64,000 bases of DNA from Ricordea florida (Eukaryota; Cnidaria; Anthozoa; Corallimorpharia; Ricordeidae). The stretch is from positions 15,305,509-15,369,508 of the forward strand of contig OX453282.1 in the NCBI GenBank assembly GCA_949710005.1, read 5' to 3'. Each line of letters starts with the position of its first letter. The stretch's first letter is position 1. Below, one piece after another: positions 5,912-62,110 of this stretch. Below the pieces are notes generated by a model. The model was not told where the DNA came from. It was given only the letters and a program-made list of their open reading frames with translations, and did no database searches. The translations under genes were made by a program, and so were the position numbers.

Positions 5912-7160
5912 AACTGAATCACTTACCTTGACTGGTTAAAGAGCTTTTTACACGGAAGACAACAATTTATTGTATTAAATGGAGTCAAGTCGGAATGCTC
6001 ACAGGTGTCTTTCGGTATTCCTCAGGGTTCAGTGCTGGGACCGAATTTATTCACGCTATTTACAAATGACCTTCCTGCTTTAGTCAGCTCGGGGTACCTG
6101 TACATGTACGCAGATGATACAACAGCCTATTGCATAGGAGAATCAGTAGACATCGCTATTGCGCAACTCAACAAGACCTTAAAGGAAGTATATATGTGGT
6201 GTCTAACAAATAGCTTAACACCTCATCCAGGAAAAAGTGAAGTGATGATTCTCAGTAAAGGAACCCCGATGGGGCCATATGCACCAATACAACTAGGAAC
6301 TTCAATACTTAGATGCTCTACAAAAACGCGCCTGCTGGGCATGATTGTCGACCGCAATCTAAGCTGGGTACCTCATGCACTTGAGACCAAGAAAAGATTT
6401 GCTAATAAGCTGAACCTACTGAAACGATCCAGATTTCTTTCAAAGGGCGTGCTAAAGGACTTTTATTTTAAAGTGATATTACCCTCTGTAAAATATGGTT
6501 TAGTTTTGTGGGGATCGTGTTGTAACTCTGACATACTTGATTCCATAGAAAGGCTACATTGTAGGGCGGCAAGAATTATTTTTAACTTGCCCAAGGACAT
6601 GCCGAAAAATGATGTGCTCAAATGTGTTCAATGGCCTACCTTTTCCCTGTATTATAAGTTCAACATCCTCAGGCTGTTTTATAAGGTAAACAACGACAGC
6701 CTGCCCGAGCCCTTGATGGAATCGATTCTTGGCAACTCCAGTCACGGCTATTCGCTACGAGGGAAACAATTTTCTTCTATACCACGATTTAACTCGCGAT
6801 TTATGAAGGACTCACTTAGATATAAGGGCTCTGTCCTTTGGAACATTGTTTTATACCAAGAAAAACATAAACGATTTTCAAGCTTTTTCGAGCTGAGAAA
6901 GCATGTTACAAATAGGTCCTATTTTAAAGATTTTAATTTTAACGCCCTGTCGGCTTCAACAACCCGCCATACAAATAGTGATTTTATATACAATTAGTTT
7001 TAGTTAGTTATCGTAATCATATAGTGGATTAACTTAGTAATAGTACTAGTTAGTAATTAATCAAATAATTAATCTTTATTGTAAATTAAGGATTTGTAAT
7101 TTTAGATATTTAAATGAAATTTTAATTTTTAGTAGAGTAAAATTAAATACACGACCCCAC
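5912..7160 (+). mobile_element. LINE copy A, 5'-truncated, RT C-terminal part
   Basis: In frame from about 5918 (ATG at 6005 is internal) to 6997: reverse transcriptase from FGIPQGSVLGP through the YADD catalytic box (MYADDTTAY) to the thumb and C-terminal domain. The 3' UTR ends at ...ACGACCCCAC (7160), exactly where the second copy of the family (47679-48684, minus strand) ends, so this is a true 3' terminus. The 5' part (endonuclease and RT fingers) is missing as usual for target-primed insertions. The coding remnant is open throughout. Confidence 0.85.
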
Positions 7161-36118: not shown

Positions 36119-39100
36119 TTAAAAGTTTTGGTAAATCATGGATGTGTTGTCTGCTAAGTCAAGTAGTCTTTGTTCTTCTGTCAGTCGTTCTTGCAAACGC
36201 TTACACTTACCTATGCCCTGAAGTCTTTGGAATGGCATTGGCTGAATTACAGCATGCTGTAAAGACCGAACTCTTGATGTTGCAACAAAGGTACATCCAG
36301 CTGCTCTTTCTGATTTTCCAATGTCTATGACTACTTTATTTAGTGTTTGTCCTTGTGACTTGTGAATAGTCATTGCATAGCTCAATCGAAGTGGCAATTG
36401 AAGACGAGAAAGTTTCTTGTTGTCATCTTCCCATTCAAACCGGTGAGGTGGTACAGGTATAGAAAGGGGGTCATCATCTATAAAGGCTGGACCTCTGTAG
36501 TGGGGAAAGTGTACAAGTACAGCTACGGGTAAGCATGGTGGTGGTTTATCTGGATGAAACAGAAGTTCCTGAACTGTCCCAACTGTCCCATTGCACAGTC
36601 CAACTTCTTGCCAAAGGTTAGAAGTGAGCATGACAGTTGCACCTCGAGAAAGGAACACTTCAGACTGCAGGCCTCCTGCATCATCAGATTTTGCAGCACT
36701 GGCTCCTATACCTGAGTGAACTGCTGATATTCTTGCAATAGGATTACCAAGTCTGCACAACTTCTCATAGTTGTACCTTGCAACATTTTCCTTATCATAG
36801 AACAGTCGTACTGCATCTTTGAAATCTTCCATGTTTACATTTTGTGGTGCTCTTTCTTGAAGTTTGTGCCAGTCTTCTTGTGTTACTATTCCGTCTCTCA
36901 TCCTCAATAGTAGTTCTCTAAATTCCTCTGCTTCAGGGTTATTTCCATTCTGTCGAACATTCTCATTCAATACAACCACATTTTCAAACAGAGTATAAAC
37001 TGAATAGCCCTGTTGTGCTAACACAGTAGCTGCTGGTGGTGAATAAAGTGGTCTATCTCCTACAGGTGGTAACTGTGCAAAGTCACCAAAAAGGATTACT
37101 GAGTATCCTCCTAAAGGTGTGTTGAGTTTTCCTGAGGCTTGACGTAGACGCTTGTCAACCCATGCCAAAGTTCTCTGTCCAAGCATTGAGAATTCATCTA
37201 TAATGAGATAATGTTTACCCTGTAATCTGAGTTGTAGACGTTGTAAGGCTGCTCCTTGCAAATCTGTTTTGTTTAGAGTGCGCACTGGTAGTTGTAAGGT
37301 AGAGTGAAGAGTGCTTCCAGCAATGTTGAAACCTGCAATTCCAGTGGTTCCTGTGAGAATACACTGATCTCCCAGAAGATGAGCCAATGCATTTATTAGA
37401 AATGACTTTCCTGTTCCAGCGGTTCCTGTGATAATCATGTGTAGAGGTTCTGTAGGTACGTTTTCATTTGGGCGTCTTTTGTGTTGCTGAACAATACTGT
37501 ATGCAAGATTTTGTCTGTGGTTCAGTGCTGTTAAATCCACAGGTTGCCTTTCCATTTCTTGTATGTGTGCAGCTTCTCTCACTTCATTTCGTTGTTTTGC
37601 TATCCACTTCTCTGATTCCCGAAGGAGGTTCGGAGGCATATTTCTTGAGGCAGATGTCCAGTCAAAATCAGGTGCATCATCATTAGCTGTGCTATTACCG
37701 AAGTGTTGGTTAAACCTACAAAGCAGTATCCATTCTTCAACTTCCTCTTGCTGTTGGTGCATCATATTCTCATCATCCTCACCATCGTTTTCATCCCCAT
37801 CATTTTCACTGTTCCCATTGTGCACCATTGCTTGTTCAAGCTCCTGAGCAAATGTTGGTATACACTGCTGTCCAGTCTCAGAATTTAGGAAATTCTTATA
37901 GCATTCAATGAACACTTCATCACTTTCCTCAAGTCCATCCCAGGCAGAGTCTACTGATTGATGCCATGGCTTGTACTTTACCAGCTGAAATTTACAGTAC
38001 TTACCATAATTCTTACCAGAAGGATTAGGAGAAAACACTGGAAAGCTTCTGATTATCACCTCCTGTTTACGTTTTCTTATGTCTCCCTTTGTAATATAAA
38101 AATCTGATGCAAACTGGAGTAGATTTAGCCGCATAATTCCAGGAACTTGTTCTCGCCACTGAACCCTTGATGCATAATGATCACGCAATGAGGGATCCAA
38201 AGCACCGTGGTTTACTTCTTCATCTTGTCCTCCACGTACTCTTTGGCTTCCATCCAGAGAAATGCAGAGAAAGCTGTAAGTACAACTGTACAAAGGTTTT
38301 CCAAGAAGCATATGGGCTGTTTCCTGAGATCCAATGTCACGTTCTCCTGCAACTTGAATCATGGCTCGGCGTAAAGCAGATGATGCACTGTCTGTATGGC
38401 GTAACTTATTGATGGCAGATTGGAGAATCTCTGTTGCCTGTTGAGATCTTGGCTCACCTTTGGTTGCATACTTGGCCATATAGCGAATGCATTGGTCAGT
38501 GTCAACAATTGCTTGCAAATCCACATTTGCTCTCCAGTTCTGAAGCATTAAGCGATTGTGTGAGTTGATGCGGTCATCATTCCTCTTGGTGATAAGTGAA
38601 GCTCTTACTCTTGCCTCAGTTATCTGCTGCACTGTCAGTTCATCTTGTCCACCATTATCTCCCTTAACAATTAGCTCAAAGTCAATGCTGGTCTGTTCAG
38701 TGCAATCCTTTGGGTAATTGAATCGGCACTGTGGTTGTTGTCCATGTTTGCTACGTAAACAATATGCTGTACTGCACCTGGTGTGACGTTCCACTGAATT
38801 GACCAGAGAGTGGTAGTCATCATTTTCATTTCCAGTTTCTTGAATGGGTATAGCAGAAGGATGTGGGTTTGGTACTGCCCAATTTCCATCTGGAAGAGCT
38901 TCATTCATGGTGGTGAGAAGCCAGTCTGCATATTGAATAACTCTTGCTTTGGCTTCAATTCCTGCTTCTATGGCTGGTGTAAAGTCATTTACCATGTCTT
39001 GATAGTTGGATTCTTCATGTTGCCTGTCCAATATTTGCTTAAGCTTCCACCCTTGAGCAGCTTTTTTTACAAGTTCACAGAGTCCTGGGTCATTCTTGAG

Positions 39101-41857
39101 CTTTGCACAACCATGTGCATGAATACTTCCTCGAGCTTGCTATTCATAACGAAGCCATTTCCATTCAGCATACAAAACTTGATCCAACCAATGTTTATTA
39201 AATTCATCAAGTCTTGCTACGAAGTGGGAGTCTGTGATATGTGGATGGTTTATGACAGCTTTTATCCGTATAGCAGGTGTTGCATTGTTTGGTTCCTCTA
39301 GCAGTTTATGAAGATCAGGCCAGTAGTTGTCAGCTGCACTAAATGTGAAGAAAAATGTTGGTGCTCCCTTCTGTTCTATAAGAGCTTTAAGTTCCAAGTA
39401 GCGTTGATACCAGTATTGTCTTGTTCCTTGAATCTTTGCCACATAACGCTGAACTCTGTTCATTAGTTGCTGTGCAGACATCTGTCGAACCATTTCTTGT
39501 AGTTCTTCTGTGGTAAGGTTAGCATCTTGAGGGTTCTGAGTGAGGTAAACCCTAGCTTGTGACAGCAACTGATGCCTCTGCTTCATGTTCAGTGCCCAGT
39601 AGGGAAACCTTGGATGGGATGCAAATCTCCACACAAACTGCCCTGTTGAGAAATGTTCTGCATACCTGATAAGGTGTTTAAAACCCTCAGTTAATGTTAC
39701 CTCCCTTAATCTTCTCTTGTTTGTGGGGTCTCCTCTTCCATGTGGAAACAGTGTGGGGAAGGCCATTGTAGCCAGTCCTTCTGTCTGGAATTCATTGATG
39801 GGATCTCCTTCATTGGATGGCCAGTCCAGTGGGTCTTCACCATTAATAAAGGCACGAATAGCGTCTTGTTCCTGTTGTTGAACCTGTTGAAAAGGAAGGA
39901 AAGAACTGCTTTCCTGTTCACTACTATTTGCTTCATTCTGGTAAGGTACCTGTTCACATATTTCTTGTATCTGCTGCTCTTCTTCTGTCTCTTGGACATG
40001 AACTGTAGGCAAATTTGTCGGAACTCCATCACATGGTAGGCACTCAAGAGCTTCATGGTTTATTTCAATGTCTGAGTAGTAGGGATTGTTGTCCTTTAGC
40101 CATGCCAGTGCTTGCATCACCTTGCGTCTTCTAACTCTGCAGTCCCTGCTGCTGTTGTCTGCACCATATCGCCTTATCACAAGGAAGGGAAGTTCTTCTA
40201 CATTGGGTGGCAGTCTTGTTATGAATCCTTGAATGTCTTGAGGAAGGTTCAACACATGTCCTTTGTAGCCACGCTGTCCTCCATGTTTACGATAAATACA
40301 CATTATTGGGCAAGCTCTAGCGATAAGCATCTCCTCTACATCGGTAAGATTCTGTAATTCATCTGGTACTGTGCCCGGATCCATGTCATTCTCCGCTGAA
40401 AACAGTTTTGTAGTTTCTTTATCCCTCTTACATCTTAGACACTGGTATGTCTGAAGAGTAAGTCCTTGCACAGTTGGCCATGTTTCTTTACATGTTAGAC
40501 ACTGTCTGTGTTCCAAGCTGTTGATGTTGTTGTGGAAAGCTGCCATGCTACTTTGAACCCATTGCTGCTGGTGCAGTCGCTGTTCTGAATTCATCCATCC
40601 ATGTGTAAGATACTCCTCTCTCGTCTGTTCCACGTGTTGTCTGTTTAACTGTACTTCCTGCCTACGTGCAGCGCTGCATTGTCGCGACATCTCGAGTCTC
40701 GAAGATCTTTGTTCGTCGGTTTCCATCTCTAAAGCGCGATTTGTGTTTAATCTAAGATTATGTAATCTACTGTTACGTTCACACTGTGATTCTACTTGTA
40801 ATCTCATTTCGCTATAAGTACTAAGTGACTGTAATCTTTCAAGTCGTTCTTGGTCTGTTTCTGTTCCCCTTATCCTGGCAGTATTTTCACGTAAAATCGT
40901 TAATCTGTTTTGCCGTTCGTCTTCCGATTCTGTCTGTATTCTGTTAGCAGTATTTTCGCGTACAATCCTTAATCTGTTATGTCGTTCCTCCTCTGATTCT
41001 GTCTGTATTCTGTTAGCAGTATTTTCACGTAAAATTCTTAATCTGTTTTGCCGCTCGTCTTGTGATTCAGTCTGTATTCTGTTAGCAGTAGTTTGGCGTA
41101 AAATCCTTAATCTGTTTTGCCGCTCGTCCTGTGATTCAGTCTGTATTCTGTTAGCAGTATTTTCGCGTACAATCCTTAATCTGTTCTGTCGTTCTTCCTC
41201 TGATTCTGTCTGTATTCTGTTAGCAGTATTTTCACGTAAAATCCTTAACCTGTTTTGCCGTTCCTCCTCTGATTCTGTTTGTAATCTGTTAGAAATATTT
41301 CCCCGCAATCTCTCCAATCGTTGAAATCGTTCGTATTCAGTTTCTGTCCTAAGTCGTTCTGCTGAATTTTGTCTCAGTATTTGCAGTCGGTGTTGTCGCT
41401 GTTCGTTAGTTTCGTTATGCAATCGTTCTGTCACGTTTAGTCTAGCTAAAGCAAGTCTTCGTTGTCTATCACTAACACATTCACTTTCAAACATACCTTG
41501 GTTGTATTGCCTGTGGTAATCCAGTCTCCTGCTCCTTTCTTCCGCTGATTCTTGCGGTCTCCTTTGCCTTCTTTGAGCAAGCAGTTGTTGTCTTTGCTCC
41601 GATGTCTGTTGTTGTCGTCGCTGCCGTGTTCTCTCCCTCTCGGCTTCGAGTCGCGCTTGTCGTTGTGCTGATGTTTCGGCGCTGAAACGCGCTTGGCGAC
41701 GATCTCTGGCTGCTTGGTTTATTCTCTGTCGGCGATCCTGTAGTTGGGATGTACTTGCAGGACGAGTGAAATCGGTTTCGGCAAAATTTTGCATAATTTT
41801 CAAGAGAGTAATCAAATACACTCCGGTCCTCAATAAGTGAATATTGAAATACGCCAT
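36119..41857 (-). pseudogene. Helitron Rep/PIF1-helicase, one in-frame TAG
   Basis: 1913 codons in one frame, interrupted only by TAG at 39140-39142. Order: Gln/Arg/Glu-rich N-terminus with 23-residue repeats (about 190-320), Cys-pair region with CLTCKETWP...CLRCKRDKE and a DUF6570-like part, Helitron-like N domain (FPTLFPHGRGDP, FFTFSAADNYWPDL), the Rep HUH motif QARGSIHAHG at 39112-39139 directly after the TAG, Rep tyrosines in RYMAKYATK (residues 184 and 188 of the second part), then a PIF1-type helicase: Walker A GTAGTGKS, Walker B LIIDEFSML, QLPPVGD, and TIHKSQGQTL. No nuclease or OTU extension. ATG 41857 lies only about 20 bases from a TATA box, so Met22 (41792-41794) is the more likely start. 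Nearly intact; probably recently active. Confidence 0.85.
40900..41290 (-). repeat. 69-base coding tandem repeat in the Helitron protein
   Basis: Six or so units encoding ANRIQTESEEERQNRLRI-type 23-residue repeats (variants RIVREN, RILRQT). Predicted long charged coiled coil; copy number is likely variable between element copies. Confidence 0.8.
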
Positions 41858-41875
41858 AACGAGGCACGTAACCAG

Positions 41876-42003
41876 TATTTATAACCTCTGGTATGAAACC
41901 GGTTCGAACCGGTTCAAACCGGTACCAAAATGCGTCCTGTTGCTAGGTAACCAACAATATCAGTCGCTGTGCGCAAGCGCGATAATCCTGTTGCCAGGTT
42001 ACC
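41876..42003 (-). promoter_or_regulatory. Helitron promoter: TATA, AACCGGTT triplet, paired X-boxes
   Basis: On the minus strand TATAAATA (41876-41883). Upstream, AACCGGTT at 41897 and 41907 and AACCGGTA at 41917, spaced exactly 10 bases. Further up, GTTGCTAGGTAACC (41939) and GTTGCCAGGTTACC (41990), both matching the RFX X-box palindrome, with TGCGCAAGCGC (NRF1-like) between them. Consensus matches are from established motif knowledge; binding is untested. Confidence 0.55.
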
Positions 42004-47678: not shown

Positions 47679-48684
47679 GTGGGGTCGTGTATTTAACTTT
47701 AACTCTACTAAAAATTAAAATTTCATTTAAATATCCAAAATTACAAAACCTTAATTTACAATAAAGATTAATTATTTGATTAATTACTAACTGGTACTAT
47801 TACTAAGTTAATCCACTATATGATTACGATAACTAACTAAAACTAATTGTATATAAAATCACTATTTGTATGGCGGGTTGTTGAAGCCGACAGGGCGTTA
47901 AAATTAAAATCTTTAAAATAGGACCTATTTGTAACATGCTTTCTCAGCTCGAAAAAGTTTGAAAATCGTTTATGTTTTTCTTGATATAAAACAATGTTCC
48001 AAAGGACAGAGCCCTTATATCTAAGTGAGTCCTTCATAAATCGCGAGTTAAATCGTGGTATAGAAGAAAATTGTTTCCCTCGTAGCGAATAGCCGTGACT
48101 GGAGTTGCCAAGAATCGATTCCATCAAGGGATCGGGCAGGCTGTCGTTGTTTACCTTATAAAACAGCCTAAGGATGTCGAGCTTATAATACAGGGAAAAG
48201 GTAGGCCATTGAACACATTTGAGCACATCATTTGTCGGCATGTCCTTGGGCAAGTTAAAAAAAATTCTTGCCGCCCTACAATGTAGCCTTTCTATGGAAT
48301 CAAGTATGTCAGAGTTACAACACGATCCCCACAAAACTAAACCATATTTTACAGAGGGTAATATCACTTTAAAATAAAAGTCCTTTAGCACGCCCTTTGG
48401 AAGAAATCTGGATCGTTTCAGTAAGTTCAGCTTATTAGGAAGACTTTTCTTGGTCTCAAGTGCATGAGGTACCCAGCTTAGATTGCGGTCGACAATCATG
48501 CCCAGCAGGCGCGTTTTTGTAACGCATCTAAGAATTGAGGTTCCTAGTTGTATTGGTGCATATGGCCCCATCGGGGTTCCTTTACTGAGTATCATCACTT
48601 CGCTCTTTCCTGGATGAGGTGTTAAGCTATTTGTTAGACACCACATATATACTTCCTTTAAGGTGTTGTTGAGCTGCGCAATAG
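47679..48684 (-). mobile_element. LINE copy B, same family as copy A
   Basis: 1006 bases on the minus strand, 5'-truncated within the RT (coding remnant 48646-47843, frame starting MWCLTNSLTPHPGK), nearly identical to copy A at 5912-7160 in protein and in the 3' UTR, with the same 3' end GACCCCAC at 47679. No clear target duplication could be read. Confidence 0.85.
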
Positions 48685-48806
48685 AAATTCTCCAAAAAAC
48701 TATAGAGAAAGAACAACAAGAAATGGATGATCTCGAAGGACAATACGAGGAAATACGAGAGAGCTACGTGGCGACCACTAAAATACTTCCCTGCGAAGCG
48801 AGGTGA
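48685..48806 (+). pseudogene. Virus-like gene, 3' part
   Basis: Coiled-coil segment (EKEQQEMDDLEGQYEEIRES) ending at TGA 48804-48806, which lies inside the right inverted repeat. Probably the C-terminus of the gene that starts at 42780 and is interrupted twice. Confidence 0.4.
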
Positions 48807-52218: not shown

Positions 52219-52322
52219 TTGTAACCCGCTCCTTCGTTCGCTGTCCCGACTCGCCTCTCCTGGACAAGATTACAAGCTCGCAGTCTCGCTCTCAACTCAC
52301 GTGGCTCGAGTGATTTTCTCGA

Positions 52323-54061
52323 TTGCTTGTCTTCTCTCCACGTTTCTCTCTTTTCACTCACAGATCAGACTCTGTTGCACAATGGGCAAAGATCGACCGA
52401 TCTTCGATGCCAGCTCACTGGATCGCCGCCGTGCTTTCAAATTTTTTTGTGGCGAACTTTCGAGACTTCTGCATTATGGAAGACTACATAAATCCGGCTA
52501 AACCCATCGACAGTGAGGACTACTGGATAACAGCCAAACGTCCGAAAGCTATGGCCGCCCTCCGTCGCGCATTTCCCCAAGCGGACTGGGACGTCTTAAC
52601 TACCACCATCGACGCTCAAATATCAGAAGAAGAAAAAACAAAATCCTGCTCAGTGGCTCGCCAAGCTTTCACAACATTACCTTGGTGGGGAACCAATAAT
52701 TCAAAGCACACACCATTTTCTTCGAAAGCTGAAACAAGAGCCAGGTATGTCGATTCGAGCGTGGCACACTCTCGTGCGTTTACAATACCAGAAGTGTAAT
52801 TTTCCAACTGCAGTGGATGACAGATTGCAAAGGGACATTTTTGTCATTGGCTTAAATGATTCATTTAGACATTTTCGCAGTGACATAATCTCTCATGAAG
52901 ACTTAACATCCCTCACTTTTGCTCAAGTCATCTCCAAAGCGCGTGATTTTGAGGCCAGCATTCAAACTGACTCTGCCATCACTCAGCAACATGTTGAAGA
53001 AGCAGCTAACAAAGTCACATCCACTGAAGACAGACCAAAAGGGCCTTCTCGTCCTCCGCGTCGTCCAATCCCTCCTGCCATTTCACAAACTAATTCCAAA
53101 ACTTGCATTTGGTGTGGACGTACACCCCATGCCACTCGCCGTGCCTGCCCTGCTTCGAATGATACATATCATGCCTGTGGAAAACGTGGGCATTGGCAAC
53201 AGGTGTGCAGGGCTTCTTCTGCAAAAGTTGTTTTGGATATGGAACAGGTTACCCACACCGATCCTCATCAACCCGCCTATTTCATCACGCATGACGTCTG
53301 TCAAGTGTCATCGTCACCGAAAGGCATCTTTGTTGACCTTGACCTCAGTCCTCCTGCATCTACCTCACCACCCATCAAGCGACTCAGATTTCAAGTTGAT
53401 TCAGGCTGCTCCTGTAACACCATACATATCACAGACCTTAACAAGCTACCTCCAGTGTCAGTGAACCCATCTTCCGTTCGTCTCCTGGACTACTCAAAAG
53501 TAGTCATTCCAACCACCGGGCAAACTACACTGCAGTGCACTCGCCGTGGAAAATCCTATGAGATTGTAGTCCAGATCATCACTGCGGAGTACTACTATGC
53601 TCCTCTCTTGAGCCTGGCCGACAGAACCCGCCTGGGAATTATTAACTATGATGTGGACACCGTCAACCAATTGGAGACTACCACATCGTCCCCACCACCT
53701 CTTAGTGAGTTAACCTTAGATTACATTAAACTCACACATCCAGAATTATTTGAAGGCTTAGGCAAACTGAGTGAACCCTTCTCCCTCACCCTCAATCCTG
53801 AAGTGAAGCCTATCCAAGCGGCCATTCACCGCTATGCTGCGCCCAAGCAACCTGTCATCAAGGAAGCACTGGATAAGCTCATCCAAACTGGTCAGCTGGT
53901 TCGAGTAAATGAACCCACCCCCTGGATCTCTAACATGGTGGTTCGGGAGCGTCCAGCAACTGCTACTAAACCTGCTTAAGTCCGTATTTGTTTGGACCCC
54001 TCACAAACCATCAACAAGGCAACCATCAGACCTGTTTACCCCATACCTACCCTTGAGGAAA
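52323..54061 (+). pseudogene. Gag-protease and start of RT, frameshifted
   Basis: Gag N-terminus in one frame (YINPAKPIDSEDYWITAKRP), a shift near 52630, then the Gag C-terminal part (52747 on; LTFAQVISKARDFEA), two zinc knuckles (CIWCGRTPHATRRAC; the second, YHACGKRGHWQQVC, has Tyr where the first Cys is expected), an aspartic protease motif QVDSGCSCN, and the RT start (DKLIQTGQLVRVNEPT). The frame stops at TAA 53977; a shifted continuation has the RT strand 'VRICLDPSQ'. The remainder of RT, including the catalytic box, is absent after about 54061. Confidence 0.85.
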
Positions 54062-55708
54062 ACATTTCACCGCTTCCATGTTGAATATCGCAAAGGTTCT
54101 TCTCTTCACATTGCTGACACTCTATCTCGAGCTCCTCTTCCCATCACCTCTCATAAGCAACTTCAAGATCAGCTGGTGTACCGAGTCGAGTTTGAATCCA
54201 ATAATCCTGATCTCCCTAGTTTCCAAGACAACACTCTCCACGACATCAGAACGACAGCTAGCACAGATCCTGAGCAGATCATTCTCCAGACTCTTACCAC
54301 CAAAGGATGGCCCAACGACAAAGCTGCGGTTCCACAGTTGGCACGACCGTACTGGTCTGTACGTCATGAAATCACTGTTCATGATGGATTGCTCTTCAAG
54401 CAGAATCGTGTCATCATTCCCTCTTCGCTTCGTGATAGTCTCTTACACAAACTCCATGCCGCTCACCGGGGCCCTGAGTTTACTCTTCGTTACGCTCGCA
54501 GCTGTCTGTTCTGGCCAGGCGTTAACAGTCAAATTACCGACATGTGTCAGTCCTGCGGTATTTGTGCCCAGCACGCTCGTCAGCATCCACGGGAGCCACT
54601 CCAACCATACCCAGTACCAACTCTACCATGGCAACTAGTTTCCCAGGACTTGTTTGCACTCAATGGTTAGGCTTATCTAGTTACAGTTGACCATTACAGT
54701 GACTTCTATGAAATTGATCAGCTTCCAAACATTCAGTCTTCAGCAGTCATTCAGGCTACAAAGCAACATTTTAGTCGACACGGGATTCCCCACACTCTCA
54801 TCACAGACAATGGTGCTCAATACACTTCTGATTTATTTCAAACATTTGTTAAGAAGTACCAATTTAATCATATCACATCTTCCCCATACTGGTCCCAGTA
54901 AAATGGACGAGCAGAAGCTGCTGTCAAATCAGCCAAGCACATTCTTCTCACAGCAGAGGATGTGGACTTAGCCCTATTGTCTGTCCGTAACACTCCACCT
55001 GCCGGACACACCTATTCGCCTGCTCAGCGCCTGTTTGGACGTACACTTCGCAGCGATCTGCCTCAGCTTCCAGCTTCATTGGAGCCTTTTACTCCTCCAC
55101 GTGACACCGTGGTAGCTGATCATGTCCATCGTAAACTGCAGCAGAAAAACTCGTATGACAAACATGCAAGTGCCCCTCTCCCTAATCTTCCTCCAGGAAG
55201 TTATGTTTATGCAAAACCACCACCCACTTCGTCAGCTAAATCCTGGGTCCGTGGAAAAGTGGTTGGTTCAGCCGGTCCTCGGTCGTACCTCATTGACACA
55301 GGCAACAGTCAAATCAGAAGAAACCGTGTCCAAATTCAGCTTGCACCACCGCAGCATGCAGGTGACTCCCCGCCTCAGGACCACTCTGTGTCAACTCTCC
55401 CTGACAAACTGTTCTCTAGTTCATTACCACCATCAGCACCTCCATCTTCGACTCCAAAGTTTTCAGCAAGTCTGTCTCCAACACCATCAAGGCCTTCCGA
55501 GGGCTCCTCGTCAACGCTATCTCCAGTCCCTGTAACCTCTCCGTCGCCTTCAGCTGATGACATTTCACCAGCAGCGTCCCTTCCTCCACTCAGTCCTCAC
55601 ACACCCTCACAGACATCTCCTACCATTTCATCGCCCAGTTTGCCTAAGCCTCCAAATATAACGCGCAGTGGTCGAATTACTCGACGTCCTGCTAGATACT
55701 CTGACTAA
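54062..55708 (+). pseudogene. Integrase and C-terminal Pol, two in-frame stops
   Basis: Begins in the last strand of RNase H (EYRKGSSLHIADTLSRA), then the H2C2 zinc-binding domain of integrase (HAAHRGPEFTLRYARS... with CQSCGICAQH), TAG at 54667, the core with DHYSDFYE and TDNGAQYTS, TAA at 54899 just before NGRAEA, and the C-terminal domain (YDKHAS, PPGSYVYAKPPP) with a long Pro/Ser-rich tail. The two stops and the missing RT make the element inactive. Confidence 0.85.
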
Positions 55709-56662: not shown

Positions 56663-56668
56663 CCGCTG

Positions 56669-56950
56669 TATGGTGGCCCATTAGGGCCATAGATTTTTTT
56701 ATATCTTTCAATTTTTTTTTTTTTTTTAGTTTTTATTCTGTTTTTTTTTTCCTTTTATTTTTTTTTTAGTTTTATGTTTATTTTATTTATTTAGTTTTTT
56801 TTTTCAAACTGTAATTATTTTTCAAAAAAAAAGAAAACAATAAATAAAAAAAATAAACAAATTTATTTAGAAATTAAGAAAAAAAAATTCGCACGTGGCC
56901 CATGAGGGCCATAAGCCCACAGAGGCCATAGCCCATCAGGCATTTCGACT
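56669..56950 (+). repeat. Left terminal inverted repeat
   Basis: Outer end TATGGTGGCCCATTAGGGCC (itself a near-palindrome), long T-rich/A-rich centre, inner end GCCCATCAGGCATTTCGACT. Confidence 0.85.
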
Positions 56951-56985
56951 TATGCACAGTTTGTAAGTCGCGCGGGCAAGACAAA

Positions 56986-58879
56986 ATGGTGACGAGAGTT
57001 AGAAATAGCGATTGGCAAGAAGATCAGAATTTGAGGGGTGATTTGATCAAGTATGTGAAACAAAATTTGCGCCGAAAGGAGATTTCAGACTTAGTCCAAA
57101 TCAGGTATTCTATCTATGCATGGAGCCATCGCACTCTCACTCGTCGACTCCAATATTTCGGCATCCAGTCTACGGACTATAGCGTGGATATTGACGATGT
57201 ACGCGATGCTGTCGAGAAAGAAATGAACGGTCCTGGCAATCTACTCGGCTACAGAGCTTTGCATCAGAAAATTCGTGAAGTTCATGGCTTGAACGTGCCC
57301 AGAAATCTAGTATATGCCATGATGACCGAGGTGAACCCACAAGGACTCAAAGAAAGAGGATGCATTGGGAAAGAATGTGTTTATATCATACGTAAGCAAA
57401 CCACAACTTTTTTAGAGTTTAAAGATTCGGGTTTAGTTCCTTTATGAGCGTTTTAAGTCAAGCAAGACATGCTTAATTCCACCTACCGTAGATTGGTTGA
57501 TTAAAATTACCTTATGTTGGACATGAGCCGAGAAGTCTTCACCAAAGATCGGACAATCGTCCAAAACGACGAATCATGGACAAAGTACAGTGCAGGATCG
57601 ATGTACTCGAAGAGTTTAACAAAATCAGTTTCCTTTAAAATCTTCACTTCCCGATTGCAGAGGAAAGAAAATCTACTTAGTCTAGAACAAAGAATCCAAA
57701 ACATGATACTCCTTTATCCTGTCCCTTTTAAAGATAGCTGCCCCAAGCCACAAGAGGTATATATCATTAGCACAAGAAATCTTCTTGAAGATGCCCAACT
57801 GATCCGAGTGAGGGATAACATTGTTATGACAAAATTAAGACAAAATATCTCCTGAATATCCCCTCTTTTGTCCCAGGAAGTGTAACCCTTTTTAATTTTA
57901 TACTGAAATAGGGACCAAATTTCACATTGTCACTTGATGGTCATGACAAGATGTGTGGATATCAAAACTGCATGTTTCCTCTGTGCACTTTTTATGGTGG
58001 TCAAGACACTTACAGTGGGAGAATAAACTTCTTGAGGATTTGGACCACCAAAAGCAGCCCCAAAATTATTGGCAGGTTCTACCTGGATTATTTATATGAA
58101 TTCAAAGTAAAGGTTAGCACATACTGTCACTTGTAAAAAAATTAACACATGCATAAACAGGATGTTTTCAAGATCTAAAGCATCTTTTCAGTCGGACATG
58201 GAGATGATGATCCAACAGTAATAACAAGATATAATAAGTAATACAGTAACAATAAGTTGAGACAATTCAAATATGAAAACACTGAAGCCCCCCCCAAGAT
58301 TCAATGTATTGATATTGGCCTCAATTTGTCTATACATGAGAAAACCACTGAATTGGTACAACCTATAATTCACCAATATATCACCACTACCACAATTATC
58401 TAACTAGAACTGATTTAAAATTTTATTTAAAAGTTACTGTAAGAAAGCTGAACTTTCATTTAATTTCAATAACCAAAATGGCCAAAAGTAAAATACTTTG
58501 GTTTTGTTTGTAGGAATTTGTTGGCGTATGTGTACATTCCAGTTCTCCAAAAGGAACTTGACACATTCAGAATTTCTATATGGAACAACCATCGGCCCGA
58601 AAACAAAAGGGTAAAGAGCTCCCCACAGGAATACCAGAACACATTTACCATTGTCTAGAGAAGTATGGTGGTGAAAAATGTGGTTTCCCCATTACGGAGC
58701 AACAACTTGTGGAAGTTGCAAACTTATCAAAGGTCTTAGATGATACAGATGATTATTTGGAGCCAAATTTCCGCATGGAATGTGAAAGGCATATCCCAGA
58801 CACTGATGAGATAGAACCTGCTGAGGCTGCAAATGCTTACTTGTACTTAAAAGCTAATTTTGATCCCAACAGGGTTTGA
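56986..58879 (+). pseudogene. Integrase-like (rve) transposase, catalytic exon missing
   Basis: Exon 1 from ATG 56986 encodes helix-turn-helix-type sequence (SHRTLTRRLQYFGI) and a region GPGNLLGYRALHQKI...VPRNLVYAMM typical of a family of animal integrase-core proteins. Exon 2 (about 57911-58108, after TAG|GGACC) has SLDGHDKMCGYQN with the first catalytic Asp and IIGRFYLDYLYE. Exon 3 (about 58516-58879) has the C-terminal region (WNNHR, then GIPEHIYHCLEKYG, ECERHIPDTDEIEPAEAANA) with a one-base shift near 58590. Between exons 2 and 3 the part with the second Asp and Glu (normally 'DxGTE') is not found, so the enzyme should be dead. Confidence 0.7.
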
Positions 58880-59307
58880 CTTTTTGCCATGATACAGTGA
58901 ATTAATGCTTTGTCAACCTGAACTTGTAACAAGATTATAACCTAGTCTTATACCCCATTCACACCAGGAAAATGTTTTGCTAAGCAAATTTAACAAAATC
59001 AAGATCAGCAATAGAAAAGTGAGTGGCTGAGTTTTACATAGGGTCAAGTGAGCTGTACCTTTTTTTGGCTGTGTTGAATTTGAAGTCGAAAACCATTCAG
59101 TTAGCAACCTCAAGAGAGAAAACAATTTCAAAGTAGGTTCAACAAAACAACTTTCAAACATGTTTAAGCTTTGGAAATAATCGGATATGAGTGCAACAGC
59201 AACAAGGAAACATTAACACAAAACATGCCCGTATTAAAAATTATGTTACATGTACATTCTTCTGTAGTGGCATATTACTCTTGATCAAGTTTGAGGAGAG
59301 TACAGTA

Positions 59308-60510
59308 TTAATTACAGACATGCACTTCCTCAAATTTGTCAATGGCAGAATAAGACAAGTTTCCAGAACAGAAGAGAATGGTGTTATCATTTGCATCCCT
59401 TAAGTCTGCACTGGCTATTTCAGGATCGCAAAGACAGTAACCTTTTCCTTGAATGTCAACAACCATAAGTTTTTTGCCTGACTTTACATAGGTGTAATGG
59501 ACAAAGGTCTCTGCTTTTAGAGAGGCTTCACTTCCATCACGGTAGATGTCTCCTGTATTGTTAACATACTTGGAGAATGGGGTGGTGTCGTCCAAAAACT
59601 TTTCAACAGATACGTACTCCCCGTTTAGTTTGCCTAAGAAAACTTTCGTGTAGGAGAATGTGTCACCAAACTCCTGTGGCTTCTCCAGTTCTAAGTTCTT
59701 CGCAAATCTGCGGGCCAGCGAATTCATTTGAACAGCTTTACGTGTATGACCTTCTAAACTATTAAACAACTCCTCAATGTCACGAATTTGGTCTTCCTTC
59801 ATCTTTTTCAATACATACATACCATCCCGAATTCCTGACAGTGCATTTGCCACATAAGCATTGCGGAAGGTCCCGCTAGCAAATTTTTCCTTTTGTAACG
59901 AAAATCTTGCTTGAAATGGTTCGCACCATGTCATGTCCTTGACAGAAAACTCCTCAAGTGTCAAAGTAACAAAATCAGTTTTGGGAGTAATTACCTTTCC
60001 AAGCCTTAACATTGAACTCAACGGCATGGTTGCAGCCATCATGGATTTTTTGGGGGGATTTATACCTTCTACTCTCACAGACTTGCTTGGGCTCGCGGGT
60101 GCTGACTGAGGAAATTCGTCAAGCCGATCACGCCGTAGATTCAGGGCATCTGGCCTCGCAGTACCAGGTTCGATAAATCTGATGTGAAGCAATTTCCAAT
60201 TCCTTATTTGGCTTGTGTCGGTGTAAGATGGTCCCCTCTCACCAGCAAGCAGATCACACTCCATATCGGTAAGCTGGAAGTGTTTTTTGCATGCTTCTTT
60301 AATATTTTGGAGCGTGGCTTCGCAATCGAGGGGAACCAAGGTCAGTGCACCGATACGTGAATATTTTTGGCACTTGCCTTCAACAGATGAGGAAAGGCGT
60401 TGCACTGTTAGAAATTCAAATCCATTTGACTCTGTTTTGCTGTTTCCTGCTCTTTTCTTGCCCACTCTCGCTCTAAACGCATCCCAATCCTGCTTTTTCC
60501 GCTTCGACAT
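59308..60510 (-). pseudogene. Alpha-kinase domain protein, stop in the zinc module
   Basis: 400 residues, intronless. N-terminal 180 residues are unrecognised (basic start MSKRKKQDW, then a ubiquitin-like-fold-sized region). Kinase domain about 180-400: FASGTFRNAY (211-219 loop), VLKK (233-236), VEKF (302-305), FVHYTY (336-341), VVDIQGKG (350-357), CDPEI (361-365), GN at 383-384, and HVCN (397-400). These are the signature elements of alpha-kinases (eEF2K/MHCK/TRPM7 type), Ser/Thr kinases. The TAA at 59308-59310 falls within the C-terminal zinc module; reading past it shows YCTLLKL, the expected second part. Possibly partly functional but the zinc site is lost. Confidence 0.8.
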
Positions 60511-60585
60511 TTCGTAGAAATACCGATGGTGTTAGGCACATGCACAAGAACAATTACTATCCCAGAATGCATTGGCGATACCTAG

Positions 60586-60886
60586 AGTCGAAATGCCTGA
60601 TGGGCTATGGCCTCTGTGGGCTTATGGCCCTCATGGGCCACGTGCGAATTTTTTTTTTTAATTTCTAGATAAATTTTTCTAATTTTTTTTTATTTATTAT
60701 TTTTTTAAAAAAAAAAATTAATTACAGTTTGAAAAAAAAAACTAAATAAATAAAATAAACATAAAACTAAAAAAAAATAAAAGGAAACAAAACAGAATAA
60801 AAACTATAAAGAAAAAAAAATTTCTAAAGATATAAAAGATATAGAAAGATATAAAAAAAACTCTATGGCCCTAATGGGCCACCATA
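60586..60886 (-). repeat. Right terminal inverted repeat
   Basis: Inverse of 56669-56950 with a few indels in the A/T-rich centre. Confidence 0.85.
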
Positions 60887-62110
60887 CCGCTGTTCAGTAA
60901 AAACCCAACACTCTCCTGTAGCACCGCTGTTCAGTAAAATCCACTATTCCCTAGCGAATTTGCCGGGAAAACCTATTGTCTTTTCGGTTCTTTCTATGGC
61001 TTTCGAAAGCGACGGGATGCATTTTGCACATATCTAAAGGGTAAGTGATTTAGAAGTTGTATCAAATGGAAATTTTTAAGCGATAGGGAGTAAATACCTA
61101 ATTTGACTGGGTTAAATAGACAAATAAGCTTACAACGCGCGAAGCTACATTTGCAGGAAGATTTGCTACATGTACAGAAAAAAAAATTGTATGTAAGTCT
61201 ATAAGAACATTCAAACATTACATGTACTACTTAAACAGTAACAGTCGAAGTCGATAAGGCCCGTGTTTGGCAAGATTTCCGCACAGGTCCCTACTTCATT
61301 ATGCATACGCTCCTTTGTTTCAAGAAAACAATAGCGATAACAATAGGGGCGTCGATAAAAGCAGGAACATGGAACATTCCGGAACATCCCGGAACATGAA
61401 AATTTTTTAAAATCTTAAAGAAAATAATAGCAAGAAGTAAATAAGGCAGTAAATATAAACATAACTAAAGAGCCCAAAAAATAAAACTAAAGAAAGAAAG
61501 AAACTGGCTTGTAATTCTCGAGTACTCTACACTAGTTTAAACAACCAAGAAATCCATGTGAAATCGTCTACGTATGAAACAAATAAGAAAACTTACCTAT
61601 ACTGGTCAGAGTCCCACATTTTCCTGCCGATCGCCGTCATCAGTTTTGTACAGCGAACGAAACGAGTTTTATATCATAGATACTGAGATTTCCTCACGAA
61701 AAAAAGAGTACGTAAAAATGATACGTAAAATGCATTAGCCAATAGGAAACGCGAACGATGAAAACTCACTAATGAAAAAACGTCGTTCGTCCACTCACAA
61801 ACGCGAACGACGAAAACTCACAAGCGAACAACATCGCATCGCGATTTCGATGAAATTTGAACCTGTAAGCTTCAGTCAGGTTTTCTTTTCTTCAGCTGAA
61901 AAATGTTTATAAAAGTTGTGAAGGTATAAACTGACGTTTTATTTCTTGTGTTACTTCATTAAATATTTGATTTTGAAAGAGAAACTGACGTTTTATTTAT
62001 TCTAGTTTTACATGCATACATTGCAGTTGAATGGGTTCCCCAAACTTGCGCGTAAGATTGACAAATAAATTTTGGCTTTTCAAAAATCTCAGTATCTATA
62101 AAATAAACAA
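60887..62110. other. No gene; short repeats
   Basis: ACCGCTGTTCAGTAAAA occurs twice (60886 and 60919) just outside the transposon. A small GGAACAT array at 61366-61398 and two related 'gcgaacgaYgaaaactcac' words (61750-61825) suggest minor dispersed repeats. No supported coding frame. Confidence 0.35.

Follow-up and report, generated by a model that had tools for sequence, protein, structure and literature searches.

The sequence analyzed here (the window) is a 64,000 nucleotide (nt) stretch of contig OX453282.1 from the corallimorpharian Ricordea florida (GenBank assembly GCA_949710005.1, positions 15,305,509–15,369,508 of the forward strand). It contains a 4,218 bp transposable element, at window positions 56669–60886, which sits between two copies of CCGCTG as read directly from the sequence. 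The element displays a transposase on the plus strand and an intronless alpha-kinase gene on the minus strand, and the two are arranged tail to tail. It is very probably an insertion of an IS3EU-type cut-and-paste transposon that has since become defective; the intact lineage carries a convergent transposase and a resident kinase. The initial annotation of this DNA had described a 4.2 kb element with inverted repeats of about 290 bases and a 6-base target duplication, and this outline holds (Table 1). The two genes it had proposed, an integrase-like transposase and an intronless alpha-kinase, are both present, however the transposase is in pieces and the kinase is 12 residues short.

Both ends of the element are TATGGTGGCCCATTAGGGCCATA in inverted orientation and the termini are TATGG..CCATA. 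Alignment of the two terminal inverted repeat (TIR) arms, of 282 and 301 bp, shows 262 identities and nine mismatches, with gaps at 41 positions that lie chiefly in A/T runs. The alignment scores 424, against a maximum of 34 in 100 shuffles. The terminal motif recurs inside both arms, towards their inner ends, at positions 56895–56913 and 60623–60641 (blastn).

Table 1. Positions of the parts of the transposon in the window (TSD, target site duplication; ORF, open reading frame; aa, amino acid).
Feature	Positions	Strand	Remarks
Left TSD copy, CCGCTG	56663..56668	+	Equals right copy; single at empty sites L082 and L083
Left TIR, 282 bp, begins TATGGTGGCCCATTAGGGCCATA	56669..56950	+	Aligned to right arm
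Transposase, N-terminal part	Open frame 56986-57447; similarity to relatives through 57372	+	70% identity to P0122 1-87, 82% to P0169 1-129
Transposase segment with first catalytic Asp (SLDGHDK)	57912..58109	+	74% identity to P0122 101-165
Transposase, C-terminal part, two frames	58512..58879	+	Frame change near 58595; P0122 248-285 and 276-365 matched
Intronless alpha-kinase gene, 400 aa, one exon	59308..60510	-	ORF ends directly after HVCN
Alpha-kinase domain, residues 211-400	59311..59880	-	
Kinase N-terminal domain, residues 33-113, ubiquitin-like (beta-grasp) by predicted structure	60172..60414	-	AlphaFold2, Foldseek
Right TIR, 301 bp, end ..TATGGCCCTAATGGGCCACCATA	60586..60886	-	Aligned to left arm
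Right TSD copy, CCGCTG	60887..60892	+	Perfect 6-bp match to left copy

The transposase of the window copy consists of plus strand pieces only. These match residues 1–87, 101–165, 248–285 and 276–365 of the relative P0122 at positions 57112–57372, 57912–58109, 58512–58625 and 58595–58864, respectively, and the last stretch is interrupted by a frame change. The window copy has no counterpart of P0122 residues from about 166 to 247, where the second D and the E are located, and a six-frame search for both motifs gave no trace of them. The first D alone is kept and two of the three catalytic residues are missing. A Pfam scan of the raw transposase ORFs of the window gave nothing significant. The four relatives scanned (P0122, P0123, P0126 and P0129) all display the Pfam “Integrase core domain” PF24764. 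In a sister element on contig C10 (see below) the catalytic residues are D146, D210 and E250, i.e. DD39E. The D–E spacing of 39 is found in this sister and in four of six relatives checked; the remaining two have spacings of 38 and 43.

The kinase displays the Pfam Alpha_kinase domain (PF02816; E-value = 5.5e-29, 102 bits with a cut-off of 21.3) over profile positions 1–182 of 185. The 12 missing residues are at the C-terminal end, in comparison with the closest relative P0001. The zinc site is incomplete, as the ORF ends after the CN of the C-terminal CNxxC, whose last Cys we take to be a zinc-site residue. CNxxC is found at this site in 69 of 77 relatives (three have a variant and five have neither) and in three sister copies. 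Positions K235, H338, D352, Q354, G355, D362, H397 and C399 are each constant in 73 to 77 of the 77 relatives, and presumably include catalytic and zinc-site residues. This constancy argues that kinase activity was probably retained.

The N-terminal domain of the kinase is predicted to be ubiquitin-like. A Foldseek search with its AlphaFold2 model gives top matches that are largely ubiquitin-like chains, among which we count the TmoB-like and ESX-3 chains on our own assumption; the matches are weak (best E-value = 3.4e-3). A second structural comparison (VIA), which covered the full-length kinase model only, gave a match list filled by kinases. The nearest named relatives of both proteins are from anthozoans, i.e. 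Oculina, Acropora, Exaiptasia and Dendronephthya, and there are single named matches in Saccoglossus, Lottia and Clytia. Among the matches listed, most of them without a species name, none was recognized as fungal. A viral source of the kinase was considered and rejected: an IMG/VR scan starting from six short peptide patterns showed no relative, and the full-length kinase model has no match to viral models in Foldseek at E ≤ 0.001.

The host genome that was searched comprises 537.8 Mb in 48 contigs. Two empty sites are present in it, L082 and L083, on contigs C12 and C5. Both flanks of the window element align there on either side of a single CCGCTG with no element; such sites are what the initial annotation had proposed to look for. 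The alignments have 251 of 275 and 255 of 279 identical columns (~91%) across both flanks. A third locus, L084 on C11, was set aside as uninformative, since the right flank alone aligns.

Three complete sister copies, on contigs C10, C13 and C2, were read end to end and are 99.4–99.9% identical to each other over approximately 4,596 bp. Their target site duplications are CACTAC/CACTAC, GAGGAC/GAGGAC and, for the C2 copy, GGCTAC/GGCCTC (4/6). Every sister copy encodes a 428 aa kinase ORF and a transposase frame that covers all 404 residues of P0132 at 83%–84% identity. The first ATG of the transposase frame is later in the C13 sister, which gives 371 aa, and both genes are open or nearly so across the sisters. 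These 4.6 kb elements are additional copies of the sort that the initial annotation had proposed to search for, in which ends of the same type enclose both genes. The near-identical copies are at different sites and therefore the two-gene unit has moved recently.

A derivative with a broken kinase is found at seven loci (L019–L022 and L025–L027, on contigs C9, C10, C16, C12, C5 and C3). The copies are 99.5%–99.7% identical to L019 over 2.9–3.2 kb and display the same terminus after seven different flanks. The kinase match has the same number of stop codons in six of the loci and one more in L025. The right end is known for one of the seven copies; followed to its end, this copy is 3,449 bp long, with the duplication CTTCTA/CTTCTA and arms that are 94% identical. 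Its first ~20 bases are as in the C10 element and its transposase is represented by short matches to the start only. The derivative has spread despite its broken kinase, presumably by means of transposase from elements of the C10 type.

The inner left arm together with the transposase start has 31 matches in the genome. Seventeen regions were then fetched and seven of these have both termini. The flanking 6 bp agree at 6/6 positions in L064 (GACCTG) and at 5/6 in L062, L063, L073 and L075; L071 has both termini and no duplication. L062, L063, L064 and L071 are 1.2–1.4 kb derivatives that consist of both arms, whole or partial, and the 5′ part of the kinase. Over the related copies as a set, the duplications CACTAC, GAGGAC, CTTCTA and GACCTG are perfect, that of the C2 copy is 4/6, four are 5/6 and two copies have none. 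A separate form is displayed by L069 (C14:6505600–6508000), a palindromic derivative in which two inverted kinase fragments lie between terminal repeats, with inverted matching flanks and no direct duplication.

The ends, the TSD length, the DDE transposase and the gene pair fit the IS3EU superfamily. The assignment is based on these four properties, and known families were compared by their published descriptions. IS3EU elements are described as having TA..TA termini and usually 6 bp TSDs (PMC10045372). For fungal IS3EU families, the sections of PMC12730594 (2025) that describe them give TAYGG..CCRTA ends and TIRs of more than 30 bp, and in the families that carry TET the transposase and alpha-kinase are in opposite orientations. 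The third gene in some of these families encodes a TET/JBP dioxygenase, which is linked there to escape from methylation-based silencing (PMC12730594). The present element is like the TET-carrying fungal families, as described, in its 6 bp TSD (CCGCTG on both sides, single in the two empty sites), its TATGG..CCATA termini with TIRs of 282 and 301 bp, its DDE transposase and its alpha-kinase in opposite orientation, the last found in the window element and in the three sister elements. The DDE residues are those of the lineage (the C10 sister and relatives), as the window copy has the first D only. Unlike the fungal families, the host here is an animal, no third gene is recognized between the two genes and the TIRs are ~290–360 bp long.

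GingerRoot, of the same lineage as IS3EU (PMC10045372), is similar by description only: it has 6 bp TSDs, ends that are mostly TA..TA and an integrase-related transposase. The word “kinase” is found 0 times in the searched text of PMC10045372. Styx of Zymoseptoria, as presented in the text of PMC10853768, is similar in its IS3EU-related transposase, 6 bp duplications and acquired extra genes, but differs in a 36 bp TIR and in the nature of the extra genes; the single mention of “kinase” in that text concerns a duplicated neighbouring gene. In contrast to cellular alpha-kinases (TRPM7, MHCK A, eEF2K, ALPK1), the protein described here is a stand-alone chain of 400–430 aa, encoded by one exon inside a transposon, with a predicted N-terminal ubiquitin-like domain.

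An expansion of alpha-kinases is tabulated for rust fungi, with 79 and 39 PF02816 genes in two table columns, and the portion of the source around the table states no transposon link (PMC4469406). We infer that this expansion and the fungal IS3EU kinases belong together. The Pfam enrichment table of PMC5295586 also has an alpha-kinase row. A term search gave no match in PMC9674265, only eIF2-alpha kinase in PMC6505742 and no kinase in PMC9587614. No animal alpha-kinase transposon was found in the titles and abstracts of the papers listed, which included all 36 in the searched collection that mention IS3EU; Repbase and subscription journals were outside this search and may hold such families. 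The initial annotation had considered carriage of a signalling enzyme by a transposon to be unusual. The carriage is borne out, however the same combination of transposase and alpha-kinase is already known in print for fungal IS3EU, and what is added here is the animal evidence.

The kinase query gives at least 112 matches in the host genome, which represent at least 76 loci after merging, and the transposase query P0132 gives at least 105 matches. Among the matches scored, 19 of the 44 close transposase matches (≥45% identity) are within 10 kb of a kinase match, and 17 of the 19 are convergent with it; a single C5 locus accounts for two of the 19 rows. Of the 61 weaker transposase matches none is that near to a kinase match, and about 0.003 kinase loci would be expected at this distance from a randomly chosen position. 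A transposase match lies no more than 10 kb away from 12 of the 22 kinase matches that exceed 1,050 nt. The convergent pair is also found in the host genome with kinases that are only ~35%–44% identical to the window kinase, and in a midpoint-rooted tree of 104 kinase sequences the transposase-linked kinases are located in both halves. The suggestion of the initial annotation that mobilization would explain a kinase expansion is upheld to the extent of these scored matches, in which the expansion is largely element-linked. A kinase standing alone at host loci and containing introns, part of the refutation named in the initial annotation, was not seen, although no genome-wide count of ordinary host alpha-kinases (PF02816) was made.

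Linkage of the pair extends to sequences beyond this genome, most of them cnidarian. The 139 kinase and 115 transposase rows of the protein database that are listed with a contig size have 10 such sizes in common; equal size was taken as the same contig and gene order there is unseen. Nine of the 10 shared sizes are 5 kb or more, compared with a mean of 0.03 after jitter, although two of these nine, a 64-Mb chromosome and a size of 3.65 Mb, show little. The shared size 4612, common to P0083 and P0209, may be due to chance, as about one size coincides in jittered lists. The named shared contigs are two from Exaiptasia and one from Dendronephthya. Adjoining kinase and transposase gene models are gene13470/gene13471 and Seg1936.5/1936.6. 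P0110, in which an integrase domain is joined to the kinase, carries PF00665 and was set aside, since it looks like an annotation fusion with a retroelement polymerase gene.

The intact element has long inverted repeats with TATGG..CCATA termini, 6 bp target duplications and two convergent genes. The transposase, a DDE enzyme of the integrase type that is DD39E in the intact sister, would cut and insert the element. The second gene product, of 400–430 aa, combines a predicted ubiquitin-like N-terminal domain with an alpha-kinase domain and may act in trans as a resident accessory factor. As a tentative proposal, the kinase would enable transposition by phosphorylating either the transposase itself or a host protein of chromatin, repair or silencing. 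Element-borne copying would account for most of the kinase expansion in the host genome. Mobilization of the kinase by a transposon, as claimed in the initial annotation, agrees with the empty sites and sister copies, but its term “cargo” does not suit a gene of an old lineage, for which “resident second gene” is the better name. In a broader form, an old lineage shared by fungi and animals may have made a ubiquitin-like/alpha-kinase protein its own transposition factor. Most alpha-kinase genes in some animals, as in rust fungi, would then belong to transposons and not to host signalling, and would add phosphate marks that serve the element. We regard this broader proposal as quite possible, though short of favoured.

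Several observations weigh against a kinase that is resident in the lineage and serves the element. Not all members of this transposase family are accompanied by the kinase, because 25 of the 44 close and all 61 distant transposase matches have no kinase match within 10 kb. Ten of the 22 long kinase matches are without a nearby transposase match: seven of these are copies of the derivative whose kinase is broken, a remnant of a transposase lies less than 1.5 kb from another (L008) and two are unexplained. Of the kinase candidates in the genome 104 of 134 were scored, and of the transposase candidates (query P0132) 103 of 605. Agreement between kinase and transposase divergence is only moderate (rho = 0.48, 77/5000 permutations, 11 pairs), and with the C10 pair added rho is 0.31–0.41 under three overlap limits (71–190 of 3000). 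The ratio of nonsynonymous to synonymous substitution (dN/dS) in young kinase copies is mixed and based on few changes. It is 0.42–0.54 for L010 compared with L009 and L011–L013, 0.72–0.98 in comparisons with L023 and 1.4–2.7, with very few changes, for L006–L008; all other young pairs are undefined. Lastly, seven near-identical derivative copies have a broken kinase, so the element does not require a functional kinase in cis.

A kinase that serves the element in trans by countering host defence, e.g. by modifying silencing or DNA-damage signalling proteins, is a rather unlikely alternative that nonetheless has a parallel. The TET/JBP dioxygenase of some fungal IS3EU families is tied to silencing escape in the account of PMC12730594. 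The separate, predicted ubiquitin-like domain of the kinase could be a docking part.

Recent capture of the kinase from the host, with passive carriage in a single transposon family, is improbable. Passive carriage would suit an intronless gene whose family consists of ordinary cellular enzymes, and also the multiplication of copies with a dead kinase. However the convergent pair is also found with the divergent kinases noted above, the linkage extends to other sequences and is reported in fungi, and each of the eight kinase residues listed above is shared by 73 to 77 of the 77 relatives. A coincidental pairing, in which a kinase-free transposon inserted into or beside a separate host kinase gene, would agree with the kinase matches that have no transposase match nearby but is ruled out by the position of the kinase inside the inverted repeats and 6 bp duplication, its absence from L082 and L083, and the three near-identical copies that carry both genes at different sites.

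A protein kinase owned by a cut-and-paste transposon is unusual, and suggests that such an element may provide its own phosphorylation to control how it transposes or evades silencing. Some cnidarian gene models that bear the names of host kinases, e.g. “TRPM6” and “eEF2 kinase” of Exaiptasia, are probably transposon genes, which would distort kinome counts. The young, near-identical copies make the role of the kinase testable.

The window displays other features as well. Positions 23814–25691 (minus strand) contain adjoining ORFs of 290 and 335 aa; a Myb-like domain is present in one of them, and the other has no Pfam match. Positions 52314–55708 (plus strand) contain ORFs that are retroelement-like by eye, and Pfam gave nothing in the two pieces scanned. 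The ORFs at 5918–6997 (plus strand) and 47843–48763 (minus strand) are nearly the same over most of the shorter one; they are ~41 kb apart in opposite orientation and by eye appear to be the end of a reverse-transcriptase element. Two large adjoining ORFs at positions 36119–41878 (minus strand) display Helitron_like_N and PIF1 helicase domains and STPR repeats, and represent a Helitron rolling-circle transposon.

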